Origin: an uncultured Pelagibacteraceae bacterium
GTDB lineage: Bacteria; Pseudomonadota; Alphaproteobacteria; Pelagibacterales; Pelagibacteraceae
Assembly: GCA_902522385.1 (NCBI GenBank)
Contig: CABYVK010000011.1
Coordinates: forward strand, 1 to 43,745
Reading direction: 5' to 3'
Length of the DNA stretch: 43,745 nucleotides
The notes under the pieces were generated by a model. The model made no database searches and was not told where the DNA came from. It saw only the letters and a program-made list of their open reading frames with translations. Each line of letters opens with the position of its first letter. Within the stretch, counting starts at the first letter, position 1. Made by a program: the position numbers and the translations under genes. Positions 5,626-31,786 of the stretch are shown here, piece after piece.

Positions 5626-7911
5626 TTATTTTTTATAATCAATAACTTTAGACGAATAAGCTGCAATTGATGCTAAATTAATTATTTCAGAAGTAGAAGT
5701 TCTTAGAGGTGCAATTTCAATAGGAAGACCAAGTCCTATAAGTAAAGGACCAATAACTTTTGTGTCACCAAAAGTTTTCATTAACTTGTATGATATTGCT
5801 GCACTGTGTTGACCTGGCATTATAAGTATATTTGCTTTTCCTACTATTTTGGCAAAAGGATAAAGCTCTTTGTATTCAGAATTCAAAGCAACATCTGGTT
5901 GCATGTCTCCATCAAATTCAAAATCAACTTTTTTATCTTTTAAAATTTCTACTGCATTTCTTATATGTTTTGTTCTGCTAGTTAGAGGTTGACCGAACGT
6001 TGAGTGAGAAACAAATGCAACTTTGGGATCAAATCCAAAAAGTCTAACTACTCTTGCTGTAGATATAGCTATTTCAGCCATTTGTTCTGAAGTTGGATAT
6101 TCATGAACACTAGTATCTCCAATAAAAATAGTTTTTCCTTTATGAACTATCATATTTAATCCAAACATTATTTCTCCTTTTCTGACATCTACAACTTGTT
6201 TGATTTTTTCCAATGATGCTCCAAACCTTCTCGTGTTACCTGTCACGGCACCGTCAGCATCACCACAGGCAACCATACTTGTAGCCCAGACAACCCTATC
6301 ATTTCTAATCATTCTGTCACAATCTCTCTCCAATAATCCCTGTTCTCTCTGCAACTTTTTAAATAAATGTTTTACATATCTTTTTCTTTTTTCTTCATCT
6401 GTTGAGTTAACAATTTCAATATCAAAATTATCACTGTAACCAATATTTTTTATCTGTTCTTTAATTTTATTTTTTTTACCAATTAAAATTGGAATACCTA
6501 ATTTGGAATTTTTAAAGGCTATTGCTGCTTTTAAAGTATTTTCATCCTCACCATCTGCAAACACAATTCTTTTTTGATTTTTTTTGATGAATGTATTTAT
6601 ACCCTGCATAATGGTTACGGTTGGGTCAAGTCTTTGTTTTAGTTGATCTTTATAAACCTCAAAATCATCTATATTTTTTCTAGCTGCTCCACTATCTATA
6701 GCTGCTTTTGCTACAGCCGCTGGTATTACACTAATTAATCTTGGATCAAATGTAGATGGAATAATATAATCTTTTCCATAATGAGGTCTTTCTCCACCCA
6801 TAGCTGCAACAACTTCATCCGGAACATCTTCTCTTGCAAGCTTAGCTATAGCGTTAGCTGCAGCAACTTTCATTTCTTCATTTATAGTTTTGGATCTAAC
6901 ATCTAAGGCTCCTCTAAAGATATAAGGAAATCCAATTAAATTGTTCACTTGATTGGGATAATCTGATCTCCCTGTTGCAACAATTGCATCATTTCTAACC
7001 TCATTAATTTCCTCGGGGGTAATTTCTGGATCAGGATTAGCACAAGCAAATATAATTGGATTTTTTGCCATTGATTTAACCATCTCTTTTTTTAGAACAC
7101 CTTTTGCAGATAATCCTAAAAAAACATCTGCACCCTTAATAGCATCAGCTAAAGTTCTATGTTTAGTTTTAACTACATACCTAGATTTCCATTGATCAAT
7201 TCCCTCAGTTCTTCCTTCATAAATAACACCTTTTCTGTCTAGCATTATTATATTTTCAGATTTTACTCCTGAGTTTTTAAATAACTCAGTACAAGCTTGT
7301 GCTGAAGCTCCAGCACCATTAACTACAACTTTAATTTTTTTTATTGATTTACCACAAATATCCAAGGCATTGATTAATGCTGCGGTTGTTATAATTGCTG
7401 TTCCATGTTGATCATCATGAAAAACTGGAATATCTAAAATTTCTTTTAATTTCTGTTCTATTATAAAACAATCTGGGGCTGCTATGTCTTCTAAATTTAT
7501 TCCACCAAAGCTAGGTGCAAAATTTTTAATTGAATTTATAATTTCGTCTGAGTCTTTACAATCAATCTCTAAATCAATCGAATCGATGTCTGCAAATCTT
7601 TTAAATAATACGGCCTTTCCTTCCATCACAGGCTTTGATGCAAGAGCACCTAAATTTCCCATACCCAGTATTGCCGAACCATTACTTATAACAGCAACAA
7701 GGTTTCCTTTACTTGTATAATCATAAGCTGCTTCAGGGTTTTCACTAATCTTTTTTACAGGAGCAGCAACTCCTGGAGAATATGCTAAAGCGAGATCACG
7801 CTTAGTTGTCATATTTTTTGAGGAAATAATCTCAATCTTACCGGGTTTTTTATCTTTATGAAAATCTAAAGCTTCTTTATCTGTGTAATGATCGATTTTT
7901 GTTTTTTTCAT
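5626..7911 (-). CDS. maeB: NADP-dependent malic enzyme with C-terminal phosphotransacetylase-like domain
   Basis: Cytoplasmic oxidative decarboxylation of malate to pyruvate, generating NADPH and linking the TCA cycle to pyruvate. The N-terminal ~430 residues carry the malic-enzyme marks YSPGVAAP, GNLGALASKPVMEGKAVLFK, DLEIDCKD, HDDQHGTAI and the nucleotide loop NGAGASAQA. The C-terminal ~330 residues resemble phosphate acetyltransferase (FADGEDENTLKAA, SHSTFGQP), a regulatory rather than catalytic fusion in MaeB proteins. I chose the ATG at 7909-7911 (MKKTKIDHYTDKEAL, 761 aa); an in-frame TTG four codons upstream at 7921-7923 is possible. Divergent from murJ by 52 bases. Confidence 0.96.
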   Translation of the reverse strand: MKKTKIDHYTDKEALDFHKDKKPGKIEIISSKNMTTKRDLALAYSPGVAAPVKKISENPEAAYDYTSKGNLVAVISNGSAILGMGNLGALASKPVMEGKAVLFKRFADIDSIDLEIDCKDSDEIINSIKNFAPSFGGINLEDIAAPDCFIIEQKLKEILDIPVFHDDQHGTAIITTAALINALDICGKSIKKIKVVVNGAGASAQACTELFKNSGVKSENIIMLDRKGVIYEGRTEGIDQWKSRYVVKTKHRTLADAIKGADVFLGLSAKGVLKKEMVKSMAKNPIIFACANPDPEITPEEINEVRNDAIVATGRSDYPNQVNNLIGFPYIFRGALDVRSKTINEEMKVAAANAIAKLAREDVPDEVVAAMGGERPHYGKDYIIPSTFDPRLISVIPAAVAKAAIDSGAARKNIDDFEVYKDQLKQRLDPTVTIMQGINTFIKKNQKRIVFADGEDENTLKAAIAFKNSKLGIPILIGKKNKIKEQIKNIGYSDNFDIEIVNSTDEEKRKRYVKHLFKKLQREQGLLERDCDRMIRNDRVVWATSMVACGDADGAVTGNTRRFGASLEKIKQVVDVRKGEIMFGLNMIVHKGKTIFIGDTSVHEYPTSEQMAEIAISTARVVRLFGFDPKVAFVSHSTFGQPLTSRTKHIRNAVEILKDKKVDFEFDGDMQPDVALNSEYKELYPFAKIVGKANILIMPGQHSAAISYKLMKTFGDTKVIGPLLIGLGLPIEIAPLRTSTSEIINLASIAAYSSKVIDYKK

Positions 7912-27037: not shown

Positions 27038-28249
27038 TTAAACTTTTTCAAAAATTAAAGCTGCATTGGTTCCACCAAAACCAAAGCTATTTGACATTAC
27101 TGTATTTAAATTTGCTACCGTTTCAGTTTTCGCAACAATTGGAAATTTTTTAGCATCAGCATCCATATCAGTAATATTTGCAGAACCTGTAATGAAATTA
27201 TTCTTCATCATTATTAAACAATAAATTGCTTCATGAACTGAAGCAGCTCCTAATGGATGACCTGATAAAGATTTAGTTGAACTTATTTTTGGAATATCAT
27301 TCCCAAATGTTTCTTTAATAGCATTAAGTTCAGTAATATCTCCAACAGGTGTTGATGTTCCGTGAGTATTAATATAGTCAATTTTATTGTTTGTAGTTGC
27401 CATCGCCATTTTCATACATCTAACAGCGCCTTCTCCTGATGGAGCTACCATATCATATCCATCCGAAGTTGCTCCATAACCAGTTAATTCTGCGTATATT
27501 TTAGCACCCCTTGCTTTAGCATGTTCGTACTCCTCAAGTACTAATACACCTGCACCACCTGCAATTACGAATCCATCTCTAGTTTTATCATAAGCTCTAG
27601 ACGCAGATTGAGGAGTATCATTATATTTTGATGATAAAGCCGTCATAGCATCAAACATTGCTGTCATCGCCCAATGAATTTCTTCACTTCCACCTGCAAA
27701 AACAACATCCTGTTTACCCATTTGAATTAATTCCATAGAATTTCCTATGCAGTGTCCACTTGTTGCACATGCAGAACTCATTGTGTAGTTAGTTCCTTTA
27801 ATTTTAAAAGGTACTGCAAGTGTTGCTGAAGCAGTACTGGCCATTGTTCTTGGAACAATAAACGGTCCCATTAATTTTGGTGTCTTAGCTCTAGTTTTAT
27901 CTGCTGCCAAAATTACATTTTCTATAGAGGGTCCTCCTGAACCCATCACAATTCCAGTTTTGAAATTACTTACTTCACTTTCTTCTAATCCTGAGTCTTC
28001 AATGGCCTCTTTCATTGCAATATAATTGTAAGCTGACCCTGAACCCATAAACCTTATTGTTTTTCTATCGATATGATCTTCAAGTTTAATATTTGGTTTA
28101 CCATGAACATGGCTTTTTAAATTATGCTCTTTGTATTCTTCTGCAAAAGAAATTCCTGATTTTGAATTTAATAGAGATTGATGAACTTCTTCTTGATTAT
28201 TGCCTAAGCAAGAAACTACTCCTAAACCGGTGATAACTACTCTTTTCAT
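27038..28249 (-). CDS. fabB: 3-oxoacyl-ACP synthase I (KAS I)
   Basis: Condensing enzyme that elongates acyl chains; with FabA it commits carbon to unsaturated fatty acids. 403 residues with the catalytic Cys in [14 protein letters not shown] and two His in [12 protein letters not shown] and [12 protein letters not shown], plus the C-terminal [15 protein letters not shown]. FabB rather than FabF is called because it is paired with fabA; the two subfamilies are hard to separate by eye. The start overlaps the fabA stop by one base (TAATG). Confidence 0.93.
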
Positions 28250-28749
28250 TATTTAAATAAACCTACCTTTAAACTTTCTGCTGAATATATTTTTTTATTA
28301 TCTGCAAGAACTATTCCATTTGCAAGCCCAACAGTTGTTCCACCAGGAGACATAATTTTCTTCATATCTATTTCATATTTTACACTTTTTACACTCTGTA
28401 AAACTTCACCTGTAAATTTTACAGTACCCACACCTAAAGCTCTTCCTTTTCCAGGATTTCCTAGCCAACCTAGAAAAAACCCTACCAGTTGCCACATAGC
28501 ATCTAAACCTAAGCACCCCGGCATAACTGGATCTTTTTTAAAATGACAATCAAAAAACCAAAGATCATCTTTAATATCTAATTCAGCTTTTAAAGAGCCT
28601 TTATTAAATGCTCCATTATTTTCATTGATTTCCGTTATTCTGTCAAACATTAGCATTGGCGGGAGAGGTAATTTTGCATTACCAGGACCAAAAAGGTCAC
28701 CATTTCCACAAGTTATTAGATCATCATAGGAGTATGAGTTTTTTTTCAT
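28249..28749 (-). CDS. fabA: 3-hydroxydecanoyl-ACP dehydratase/isomerase
   Basis: Dehydrates and isomerises the C10 intermediate, the branch point to unsaturated fatty acids. Family marks: [12 protein letters not shown], the active-site His in [20 protein letters not shown] with the catalytic Asp in [16 protein letters not shown] start it at the ATG at 28747-28749 ([10 protein letters not shown], 166 aa), which has GGGAG (28759-28763) nine bases upstream and matches the usual ~170 length. The longer frame to 28818 adds a non-family hydrophobic stretch. Divergent from irr by 93 bases, and an Irr-like box lies in that gap. Confidence 0.95.
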
Positions 28750-28816: not shown

Positions 28817-28837
28817 ATACTTTAGAATTATTATAAA
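28817..28837. promoter_or_regulatory. Probable Irr operator (ICE box) before irr
   Basis: TTTAGAA-TTA-TTATAAA (28821-28837) differs at one base from the two-armed ICE consensus TTTAGAA-N3-TTCTAAA described for Irr of other alphaproteobacteria. The 20 bases 28817-28836 recur exactly, as the reverse complement, at 29302-29321 before rubrerythrin. The box ends five bases before the irr start codon, so bound Irr would block irr transcription. It lies 68 bases upstream of the divergent fabA start. Confidence 0.75.
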
Positions 28838-28842
28838 ATACA

Positions 28843-29271
28843 ATGCCAAAAAACTGCAATTTTATTGAAAAATTAAGAGAGGTGGGACTTAGACCTACTA
28901 AGCAAAGAGTAAATATGTGTGAAGTTTTGTTTAATAGAGAAAAAACTTTCCATTTTACAATTAACGATTTGGTTAAAATGATATCTGAGAAAATGAATCA
29001 AAAGATATCTTTAGCTACAGTTTATAACACAGTTCATGCATTAGAAAAAAAAGGATATTTGAAAGAAATTTCAATCGATAGTCATAAAAGTTATTTTGAC
29101 ACAAACACATCAGCACATCATCATTTTTTTGATGAAGATACGAATGAATTAATCGATTGTGATGAGAATGATATTGATCCAGTAAATGTTAAAAAAAATA
29201 TCACTGGGAAAAAAATAAATTCAGTGGAAGTTTTGATTAAGGTTGCGAGTGATAATCAAAATCAAAAATAA
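28843..29271 (+). CDS. irr: Iron response regulator Irr (Fur family)
   Basis: Fur-family regulator that in alphaproteobacteria senses heme/iron status and binds ICE boxes. 142 residues: winged helix with REVGLRPTKQRVNMCEVLFN (12-31) and ISLATVYNTVHALEKKGYL (55-73), then a metal/heme domain with HHHFFDEDTNELIDC (92-106). The HHH cluster matches the second heme-binding region of Irr. The N-terminal GCPWHD heme motif of Bradyrhizobium is absent. Assignment to Irr rather than Fur rests on this, on divergence from fabA-fabB-fabI (the order seen in other alphaproteobacteria) and on ICE-like boxes on both sides. Confidence 0.88.
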   Translation: MPKNCNFIEKLREVGLRPTKQRVNMCEVLFNREKTFHFTINDLVKMISEKMNQKISLATVYNTVHALEKKGYLKEISIDSHKSYFDTNTSAHHHFFDEDTNELIDCDENDIDPVNVKKNITGKKINSVEVLIKVASDNQNQK

Positions 29272-29300
29272 TTCAATTAATTCATACACTTAAAAACTAC

Positions 29301-29321
29301 ATTATAATAATTCTAAAGTAT
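29301..29321. promoter_or_regulatory. Probable Irr operator (ICE box) before rubrerythrin
   Basis: ATTATAA-TAA-TTCTAAA (29301-29317) has one perfect and one near-perfect ICE arm. Bases 29302-29321 are the exact reverse complement of 28817-28836. It abuts and by one base overlaps the TTGACA -35 of the rubrerythrin promoter, a position where Irr could act either way. Confidence 0.72.
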
Positions 29322-29348
29322 TGACATACTGTCAGGATGCATTATATG
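29321..29348 (+). promoter_or_regulatory. Strong promoter of the rubrerythrin operon with operator-like palindrome
   Basis: Consensus TTGACA (29321-29326), 16 bases, then TATATG (29343-29348). TGACA-TAC-TGTCA (29322-29334) is a perfect inverted repeat overlapping the -35. AGGATGCATTA (29334-29344) resembles the NsrR half-site AAGATGYATTT at 9 of 11 positions. An AAGGAG ribosome binding site (29366-29371) lies five bases before the ATG, the clearest in the window. Promoter call is firm; regulators are guesses. Confidence 0.7.
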
Positions 29349-29376: not shown

Positions 29377-29793
29377 ATGTCTTTAAAAGGAAGTAAAACA
29401 GAGGAAAATTTAAAAGAAGCGTTTGCTGGTGAAAGTCAAGCAAACAGAAGATATCTTTATTTTGCACAAAAAGCTGACATAGAAGGTTACAATGATGTAG
29501 CTGCAGTTTTTAGATCAACAGCTGAAGGTGAAACTGGTCATGCTCATGGTCATTTAGAGTATTTAGAAGAAGTTGGTGATCCAGGAACTGGTATGCCAAT
29601 TGGTGAAACAAAAGCTAACTTAGCTTCAGCAGTACAAGGTGAAACTCATGAGTATACTGATATGTACCCTGGTATGGCTAAAACAGCTAGAGAAGAAGGC
29701 TTTGAAGAAATTGCTGACTGGTTTGAAACTTTAGCTAAAGCTGAAAAATCACACGCTGGTAAATTTCAAAAAACTTTAGAGTCTATTAGCTAA
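29377..29793 (+). CDS. Rubrerythrin (diiron domain only)
   Basis: Ferritin-like four-helix diiron protein, usually a peroxide reductase. Both E-x~33-E-x2-H iron motifs are visible: Glu19, Glu52 and His55 ([21 protein letters not shown]) and Glu89, Glu123 and His126 ([19 protein letters not shown]). At 138 residues it lacks the C-terminal rubredoxin [Fe(Cys)4] domain of classic rubrerythrins, so electrons must come from elsewhere, possibly the Fe-S protein encoded next. Consensus promoter, strong ribosome binding site and an Irr box suggest high, iron-responsive expression. Confidence 0.92.
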
Positions 29794-29858: not shown

Positions 29859-31190
29859 ATGAGTAAAGAAGGAAGTTTAGGTGCACCTATTAGACACCCT
29901 ATAGACTTTGAGCATCCTGATTTTTTAAATCCTGAAAAATTAGATGCTGAAATGAGAAGAGTGTTTGATATTTGCCATGGATGTCGAAGATGTTTTAATC
30001 TTTGTGATTCATTTCCGAAGCTATTCGACATGATTGATGAGTCTAAAAATGAGGATGTAGAAAGCTTATCTAGCGATCAATTTGCTCCTGTTGTTGATGC
30101 ATGTACTTTGTGTGATATGTGTTTTATGACTAAATGCCCATATGTTCCACCCCATGATTTTGATCTAGATTTTCCACATTTAATGCTACGATATAGAACA
30201 GCTCAAAAAAAATTAGGTAAATTACCAAGTGTACCAACACAATTAGCTCAAATAGATCGAAACGCTAAAATTGGTATTATGTTCTCAAAAATAGTCAACT
30301 GGGCATCAAATATTAAAAATAAATTAATTAGAAAAATCTTAGAGTTTATTACTGGAATAGATAAAAGAGTTCAGCTGCCAAAATATAACTCAGAAACTTT
30401 TTCAAACTTCTTTAAAAAGAATAAAGATAAGATAAATTATCTAACACCTTCTAAAGATAGAAAAGTAGTTATTTATTCAACTTGTTTTGTAAATTTTAAC
30501 AAAAAAAATACAGGTGTTGCTGCTTTAAAAGTTTTGAAGAAAAATGGTGTAGAGGTTCAGGAGGCTTATCCTGGTTGTTGTGGAATGCCATTTTTAGAGC
30601 AAGCAGACCTGCCAAAAGTTGTTGAACAAGCGAAAAAAGTTTCTAAAGATTTAATTGAATGGATTGATAAAGGATATAAAGTAGTAACTTTAACAGCTAG
30701 TTGTGGATTGATGTTAAAATTCGAATGGCCCTTGTTATTACCAAACGATGAAAAAATAAAAAAATTATCTTCAAATGTTATGGATATTGATGAGTATGTT
30801 GTGGATATTGCAAACAATGAGGGATTAGCAGAAGGATTAAATGAGATTGATGGAGGAGTAACCGTGCATCATGCTTGTCATGCTAGAGCACAGAATATGG
30901 GTATCAAAGCAAGAGACATGTTAAAATTGATACCAAACATTAAAATTGATGTAGTTGAAAGATGTGCAGGTCATGGAGGAACTTTTGGAGTAATGAAAGA
31001 AACTCATGATTTAGCAAATAAAGTTGGAAGACCTACAGCTAGACAAATAAAAACTAAAAATAATAAGTATATGGCTTCTGATTGTCCTTTAGCTGGTAAA
31101 CATTTAAAACAATTAGAAGTTGATACAAACATATCTAATGATGAGGCACTACACCCTATCGAATTGGTAGCAAAAAGTTATAACTTATGA
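29859..31190 (+). CDS. GlpC/HdrD-like (Fe-S) oxidoreductase subunit
   Basis: 443-residue protein with two ferredoxin-type [4Fe-4S] motifs near the N-terminus (CHGCRRCFNLC at about 39-49 and CTLCDMCFMTKCP at about 82-94) and two CCG-type domains (YPGCCGMPFLEQADL and VERCAGHGGTFGVM), the second with CAG in place of CCG. This layout is that of GlpC and heterodisulfide-reductase D subunits, which pass electrons at membranes or to disulfides. It lies 65 bases after rubrerythrin and overlaps the DUF3501 gene by four bases; the three genes recur together in many proteobacteria. I infer electron supply to rubrerythrin; this is not shown. Confidence 0.88.
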   Translation: MSKEGSLGAPIRHPIDFEHPDFLNPEKLDAEMRRVFDICHGCRRCFNLCDSFPKLFDMIDESKNEDVESLSSDQFAPVVDACTLCDMCFMTKCPYVPPHDFDLDFPHLMLRYRTAQKKLGKLPSVPTQLAQIDRNAKIGIMFSKIVNWASNIKNKLIRKILEFITGIDKRVQLPKYNSETFSNFFKKNKDKINYLTPSKDRKVVIYSTCFVNFNKKNTGVAALKVLKKNGVEVQEAYPGCCGMPFLEQADLPKVVEQAKKVSKDLIEWIDKGYKVVTLTASCGLMLKFEWPLLLPNDEKIKKLSSNVMDIDEYVVDIANNEGLAEGLNEIDGGVTVHHACHARAQNMGIKARDMLKLIPNIKIDVVERCAGHGGTFGVMKETHDLANKVGRPTARQIKTKNNKYMASDCPLAGKHLKQLEVDTNISNDEALHPIELVAKSYNL

Positions 31191-31786
31191 TTATGCCTAG
31201 AGAAAAAAGAGAAATTCAAAAAGAAGACATCATGTCTTTAGATGTTTATATAGAAAATAGACGTGAATTAAGAAAAAGTATTGTTGATTATAAAAAAAAT
31301 AGAAGAGTTTCTCTAGGGCCTTATGCTACTTTTTATTTTGAAAGTTATGAAACAATGTTAGCTCAAGTACAAGAAATGCTATACATTGAAAAAGGTGGTG
31401 ATGAGCAACTTCAGGATGAGTTAACTGCGTACAATCCTTTAATACCTAACGGCAAAGAACTAACGGCAACTTTAATGTTTGAAATAGATAATCCTATCTC
31501 AAGGGCTGCGTTTCTTGGAAAAGTTGGTGGAATAGAAGAAACAGTATTTATGAAAATAAATGGTGAGAAAATTAAAGCAGTTCCCGAGGAAGATGTTGAT
31601 AGAACTTCTTCTGAAGGAAAAGCTTCATCAGTACAGTTTATTCATTTTAATTTTACTGATGATCAAATAGAAAAATTTCAATCTAATAGCCCAGAAATTG
31701 AGCTCGGAATTGACCATAAAGAGTATTCTCATAGCACAAAATTATCTAAAGAAAATATAGCCTCTTTATCTACTGATTTTAGTTAA
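31187..31786 (+). CDS. DUF3501 family protein
   Basis: A 199-residue soluble protein of unknown function, recognised as DUF3501 from KEDIMSLDVYIENRRELRKS, RRVSLGPYATFYFESYETM and the strand FMKINGEKIKAVPEED. No catalytic motif, signal or membrane segment is seen. It is translationally coupled to the Fe-S protein (ATGA overlap) and is the third gene of the rubrerythrin operon, so it probably serves the same peroxide/iron process. An in-frame ATG at residue 3 is an equally good start. Its last four bases are shared with the convergent SH3 gene. Confidence 0.85.
   Translation: MIMPREKREIQKEDIMSLDVYIENRRELRKSIVDYKKNRRVSLGPYATFYFESYETMLAQVQEMLYIEKGGDEQLQDELTAYNPLIPNGKELTATLMFEIDNPISRAAFLGKVGGIEETVFMKINGEKIKAVPEEDVDRTSSEGKASSVQFIHFNFTDDQIEKFQSNSPEIELGIDHKEYSHSTKLSKENIASLSTDFS

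Follow-up and report, generated by a model that had tools for sequence, protein, structure and literature searches.

In the surface ocean, few bacteria are as abundant as SAR11. The stretch of DNA analysed here (43,745 nucleotides from an uncultured Pelagibacteraceae bacterium; below, the window) carries one 20-base sequence twice, in opposite orientation, on the two sides of a gene for a Fur-superfamily regulator, and the question is what the two copies do. The sequence-only reading took them for boxes of the regulator Irr, of the type called ICE, one autoregulating irr and the other controlling a rubrerythrin operon, and together defining a minimal iron regulon. The exact inverted repeat is confirmed in both positions and on both strands (Table 1), and a scan of the window with up to three mismatches finds no third match to ATACTTTAGAATTATTATAA; dinucleotide shuffles of the window contain 0.13 such matches on average, with two or more in 2 of 100 shuffles.

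Table 1. Features of the irr locus; positions are those of the window.
Feature	Position	Strand	Basis
fabA, divergent neighbour, locus marker in relatives	28249..28749	-	profile matches
20-mer copy 1 (ATACTTTAGAATTATTATAA), proposed Irr autoregulation box	28817..28836	+	ICE 17-mer 28821-28837 (+), TTTAGAATTATTATAAA
irr, Fur-superfamily regulator, 142 aa, Irr-like	28843..29271	+	Pfam FUR, E 7.5e-22
20-mer copy 2, exact reverse complement of copy 1, proposed Irr box of the rubrerythrin operon	29302..29321	-	ICE 17-mer 29301-29317 (-), TTTAGAATTATTATAAT
TTGACA, proposed -35 of the rbr operon	29321..29326	+	TTGACAT in 71/71 distinct nearer loci
Decayed second ICE in the -35/-10 spacer	29331..29348	+	GTCAGGATGCATTATATG, vs GTTTAGAATGATTATATG at the same place in L017
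Rubrerythrin (rbr), 138 aa, aerobic type	29377..29793	+	Pfam Rubrerythrin, E 3.1e-29
Fe-S oxidoreductase, CCG domains, GlpC-like (RFO of PMC5114695)	29859..31190	+	profile matches
DUF3501 protein	31187..31786	+	Pfam, E 1.5e-62

The ICE consensus used for scoring, TTTAGAA-N3-TTCTAAA, comes from other alphaproteobacteria. The 17-mer associated with the first copy matches it at 13 of 14 consensus positions, and that of the second copy at 12 of 14. The start codon of irr lies 6 bases past the end of the first 20-mer and 5 bp past its 17-mer; the TTGACA of the rubrerythrin operon begins 3 bp after the second 17-mer, and the second 20-mer stops on the first base of this hexamer. Both sites are consensus matches near a promoter, kept in relatives (see below), as is expected of an ICE; boxes of this name are described as bound by Irr in passages of PMC3413700. 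The predicted placement, one box at irr and the other at the operon of rubrerythrin, the Fe-S protein and DUF3501, is borne out. A role of the first box in the control of the divergent fabA, also suggested, finds no support, this box being situated at the 5' end of irr; further divergent neighbours were read from their translations as fabB and fabI.

To assess conservation, we used 80 loci from genomes titled Pelagibacteraceae or Ca. Pelagibacter ubique (the best 80 of 134 candidates encoding a relative) and 30 loci from a second set of SAR11 genomes, 110 in total. All 110 contain fabA, irr, rbr and the Fe-S gene, and DUF3501 is detected in 98. Once rows sharing the same pair of upstream regions are removed, 101 distinct loci remain, 71 of them from the nearer set. 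Here, a match to at least 12 of the 14 consensus positions is present upstream of irr in 99 of the 101 distinct loci and upstream of rbr in 100 (1.0 and 0.7 expected, respectively, from first-order Markov shuffles); the loci below this level are L032 and L037 at irr, and L035 at rbr. The box positions are 96–100% identical in the 71 distinct nearer loci; since conservation extends into the 5' flank (77–100%), the footprint within this close clade has a sharp edge on the 3' side only. The same 20 bases are common to both sites only in the window locus, with at most 16 elsewhere among the 101 distinct loci: the operator in each place is conserved, not the sameness of the two copies. The claim thus survives the check for conservation in SAR11 relatives, the motif being kept at both places.

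The protein between the boxes has the fold and domain of the Fur superfamily. Its top NCBIfam models are IrrA (133.2 bits, cut-off 150) and Irr (121.6 bits, cut-off 170), followed by a third-best model at 62.5 bits. As both scores lie under the curated equivalog cut-offs, which are strict naming thresholds, we call the protein Irr-like, and the name leans also on synteny and on the boxes. The nearest PDB sequences are those of PerR and Fur, with PerR 2fe3 as the top chain (E 1.4e-12). The HxH motif, given in PMC7762939 as the haem-binding motif of Irr, is found in all 59 SAR11 Irr sequences of our tree set, in 58 as HHH. The N-terminal haem regulatory motif, in its Bradyrhizobium-type pattern, is seen in none of the 59; since the Rhodobacter sphaeroides Irr is also reported without it (PMC3413700), this does not bar membership of the Irr family. 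TTGATT, which fits the irr promoter in divergent relatives, is 19 bp farther from the box in the window clade. Transcripts of irr and zur in a SAR11 host are reported to be raised by infection with pelagiphage HTVC027P (PMC12753301).

The rubrerythrin of the window matches the NCBIfam model RuberyRbr at positions 3–145 of 194, so the C-terminal part of the full-length model is absent; with no rubredoxin domain, and with RFO and DUF3501 adjoining, it belongs to the aerobic-type rubrerythrin cluster. In its promoter, the 3' half of the decayed spacer ICE (ATTATATG) survives as the proposed -10; ATTATAT is 100% conserved in the 71 distinct nearer loci, compared with 38–93% at 11 of the 12 preceding positions. 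Over the 101 loci, a half-site before the -35 is seen upstream of rbr in 97, a box in the spacer in 14, and both in 11; the second set of 30 SAR11 genomes accounts for all 14 spacer boxes, and the 71 nearer loci for none. Rubrerythrin itself retains 91–100% identity over the 32 SAR11 genomes with rbr, and the adjoining Irr drops to about 52%.

In most SAR11 genomes examined, the gene downstream of irr is not rbr, but katG. Among 197 genomes of the family, rbr is found in 32 and katG in 130, and 131 encode an Irr orthologue that scores above 100 bits. Directly downstream of irr, these 131 genomes have rbr (32), katG (98), or neither (one genome, G096, with a partial Irr match), and never both. 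Conversely, irr lies upstream, on the same strand and within 260 bp, of all 32 rbr genes and of 98 of the 130 katG genes; the other 32 katG genomes have no Irr match above 100 bits. No genome has both rbr and katG (hypergeometric p 2e-18, a value that ignores relatedness and covers many incomplete genomes). In two loci, the katG gene (PF00141) is followed by those of a PF05118 and a DUF2061 protein, i.e., an aspartyl/asparaginyl hydroxylase-like protein and a small membrane protein (L205:6700-7293 and 7296-7535; L209:5764-6402), apparently in one operon with katG. A box of at least 12/14 is present upstream of katG in all 29 regions, four duplicate records and L232, where the start codon was not placed, having been excluded. 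It occupies the -35/-10 spacer in 25 regions, and a half-site precedes the -35 in 11, with both in nine; two regions belong to neither class and have the box elsewhere in the gap.

The Irr tree (59 rows) requires seven changes between the two cargoes, six of them forced by well-supported branches. Identity to the window differs by gene, e.g., 69% for fabA and 84% for the Fe-S protein in L030, 80% and 73%, respectively, in L020, which fits a transfer of cargo between lineages. Published surveys describe katG as common to most offshore SAR11 genera (PMC12636525) and rubrerythrin in 4 of the 28 SAR11 members of one study (PMC11366302).

To estimate the size of the regulon, the core TTTAGAAYNRTTATA was searched in 40 genomes of the genus with an irr match, the reversed pattern serving as control. 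Of its 79 exact matches, 66 lie within 250 bp of irr and cover 39 of the 40 genomes; the 13 off-locus matches compare with 40 for the control. A separate, looser pattern with two mismatches is uninformative given the AT-rich genome of the window (765 hits vs 1001 controls). A whole-genome scan of one relative, G026 (1,308,759 bases), with a PWM from 49 distinct sites, G026's own excluded, places the irr-locus boxes at ranks 1, 2, and 4 (25.0, 21.0, and 18.6 bits), rank 3 being inside a coding region; the reversed genome yields a single window at 21 bits, equal to the second-ranked true site, and none above. Among the intergenic sites of G026, nothing beyond the irr locus and a repeat array stands out. 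This array (G026 C1:76,168-76,311; L140 16,168-16,311) consists of four exact TTAGAA-N3-TTCTAA palindromes spaced by 65, 32, and 32 bp, with a degenerate fifth copy, and its 1.3-kb AT-rich gap is filled with TGTGTTAGA-like repeats; a pair of such palindromes is found in none of the 61 other genus genomes searched (10 of the 61 at least 90% complete). Being strain-specific and situated in a repeat-rich gap, the array was set aside as a second Irr target. A wider iron regulon was likewise rejected, as off-locus sites do not rise above control either in the 40 genomes or in the PWM scan, and boxes at many genes of iron uptake, storage and haem, the mark of a global Irr regulon, are not observed in these scans. 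The predicted SAR11 Irr regulon is essentially this one locus, with peroxide defence rather than iron supply as its target. Of the minimal iron regulon proposed earlier, "minimal" therefore stands and "iron" does not, the predicted target being a peroxide-scavenging operon, mostly katG.

Genomes that lack irr bear on the link between the boxes and this gene. In six of them, no Irr match is found and katG is still beside fabA: three have no box at katG (G001, G049, G077), two a decayed one (15.5 bits in G177, 12.6 bits in G062), and one an intact box (20.4 bits in G006). In seven further irr-less genomes with katG elsewhere, no site above 12 bits is seen in the fetched stretches. The core pattern occurs in 7 of 20 genomes picked for lacking an Irr match, in one of these (G006) beside katG. 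As judged from these genomes, the box tends to follow Irr. Together with consensus match and conservation, its loss or decay in five of the six genomes that have the downstream gene without irr upholds the assignment to Irr, and we consider it very probable that the boxes are Irr operators.

The second family of the order has irr, rbr, the Fe-S gene and DUF3501 with a near-palindromic box in five of eight fetched loci; neither of its two loci with irr and neither cargo has a box. One genome of this family, G198, carries irr-katG at another place, with boxes before both genes. Here, the irr-katG-hydroxylase block (L267; G198 C6:42500-49500) stands beside ABC transporter genes, and its Irr is 51% identical to that of Pelagibacteraceae, the usual level of its family being 40–45% to the window. 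From its sequence, the block looks as if the entire module had been transferred.

Outside the order, 83 of 142 genomes of the class, including the window's own, have an Irr match at E 1e-14; 20 of the 82 others were fetched, one per family, a non-random choice mostly among the best matches. In 17 of these 20 alphaproteobacterial families, irr is followed by rbr, the Fe-S gene and DUF3501. The gap between irr and rbr contains a box of at least 12/14 in 11 of the 17 (0.05 expected) and none in six; in L283 there are two perfect 14/14 boxes 32 bp apart, and double boxes in SAR11 are spaced by 31–32 bp from start to start. This synteny and these boxes suggest that the rubrerythrin operon is probably an old Irr target, and katG a replacement.

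What the compared genomes show is that both boxes exist and are conserved, that they go with irr, that hardly any other sites occur, and that the two cargoes adjoin irr and exclude each other; the mechanism that we propose goes further. Both 20-mers would serve as operators for Irr. From the box that separates the irr promoter region from the start codon, Irr would repress irr; from the other box, at the downstream operon's promoter, it would also repress a peroxide scavenger: aerobic-type rubrerythrin with the Fe-S oxidoreductase and DUF3501 in the window, and katG in the majority of the SAR11 genomes examined. With haem up, or Irr oxidised, Irr would leave the DNA and both transcripts would rise, so that Irr would switch a single peroxidase module with exchangeable cargo, locally and in the manner of PerR. 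Binding, repression over activation, and the haem or peroxide signal are the steps that we infer; repression is favoured by the box at the 5' end of irr and by the -35/-10 spacer boxes found in katG promoters and in some rbr promoters. Taken as a whole, autoregulation with repression of a swappable peroxidase operon seems to us a fairly likely description of the locus. The passages of PMC3413700 describe R. sphaeroides Irr as a repressor whose only two predicted boxes belong to the oxidative-stress genes mbfA and ccpA, and report that loss of irr makes the mutant more resistant to peroxide. That the katE promoter is not bound by this Irr (PMC3413700) counts against the model, as do the intact box of the irr-less G006, the sub-cut-off NCBIfam scores and the six irr-rbr gaps outside the order that lack a box of at least 12/14.

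Expression data are less easily accommodated. In Ca. P. ubique under iron limitation, rbr mRNA is up 1.57-fold, Fur and Irr proteins show no significant change, and fur and irr transcripts track stationary phase, as given in passages of PMC2864753; the rise of rbr runs opposite to simple repression at low iron. Under sulfur limitation, values of 0.17 for rbr mRNA and 2.24 for the protein are reported (PMC5069961). Irr can also activate, depending on the position of the box (PMC7762939), and this may apply to the window clade, where the spacer box of rbr is decayed and the remaining box lies just before the -35. A dual regulator, activating the rubrerythrin operon from the -35-proximal box at low iron and repressing irr, would account for the rise of rbr and for this arrangement; however, the strain in which rbr rises, if it is G026 as we infer, has both the upstream and the spacer box, and the box between -35 and -10 in 25 of 29 katG promoters fits repression. 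We hold such dual action to be unlikely, and retain repression at both sites as the preferred reading.

Another member of the Fur family (Fur itself or a paralogue of the Mur/Zur type) might instead bind the boxes, with irr as just one target, as sites within the family resemble each other and many SAR11 genomes have weaker Fur-like hits; yet the boxes are concentrated at irr and tend to vanish with it while katG stays, and the core pattern elsewhere is not above control, which makes this improbable. Slightly less credible still is a wider Irr iron regulon of more degenerate boxes missed by the scans: Irr boxes do vary elsewhere, and strict patterns and a PWM trained on the locus are biased to irr, but the G026 scan puts the irr locus at ranks 1, 2, and 4, and the remaining high-scoring intergenic sites are no better than control or belong to the array. 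A mobile or invertible element around irr might account for the copies as an inverted repeat that regulates nothing, which would suit identical copies inverted about one gene; the relatives, however, keep the motif at both places and not the identity between copies, and each of the 32 family genomes with rbr has irr ahead of it on the same strand, so hardly any weight is left to this explanation. On the ground of conservation without copy identity, a chance repeat was rejected as well.

If repression by Irr at both sites is right, the locus shows how SAR11 controls its own peroxidase, tying iron or haem status to peroxide defence, and whether a SAR11 lineage has katG would depend on which of two cargoes fills the one regulated slot; the irr-linked rubrerythrin operon is possibly the oldest Irr target in Alphaproteobacteria. 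More tentatively, with the chances slightly against so broad a statement, the SAR11 Irr may have shrunk from a global iron regulator to a haem/peroxide switch of a single "peroxidase slot", in which irr and its boxes form a fixed socket; the ancestral rubrerythrin-RFO-DUF3501 cargo, found beside irr in many alphaproteobacterial families, and katG would have been swapped at least six times, and the unit moved once into another SAR11 family, with a box position that varies with cargo and lineage and perhaps changes the sign of regulation. Neither a SAR11 Irr box nor the exchange of cargo is described in the titles, abstract openings and passages covered by our literature search, which lay outside subscription papers. 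Pelagibacter Irr sites may already be listed by Rodionov in 2006, in which case priority would possibly lie there.

PerR of Firmicutes is a Fur-superfamily repressor of itself and of peroxidases, katA/katG, and rubrerythrin-like genes. The SAR11 Irr would, if our model is right, work similarly, by self-repression and repression of a peroxidase; unlike PerR, it is Irr-like by profile (133 and 122 vs about 62 bits or less), and its signal is presumed to be haem or the oxidation of haem-bound Irr. The system resembles the Irr/ICE regulation of Rhizobiales and Rhodobacter in having a Fur-superfamily Irr with HxH and a promoter box of the TTTAGAA-N3-TTCTAAA type, and rubrerythrin-like and peroxidase genes are named among the targets there, too (PMC3413700). 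It differs in that the predicted SAR11 regulon is one locus, that the right half of the SAR11 box is usually TTATAAA, and that the target is a soluble aerobic-type rubrerythrin or katG beside irr, in place of bfr/mbfA/hem genes. The rubrerythrin operon itself has the same three genes, again without a rubredoxin domain, as the aerobic-type cluster RBR-RFO-DUF3501 (PMC5114695); passages of that paper name no regulator, whereas in SAR11 irr and its boxes join the cluster, with synteny of irr in 17 of 20 other alphaproteobacterial families.
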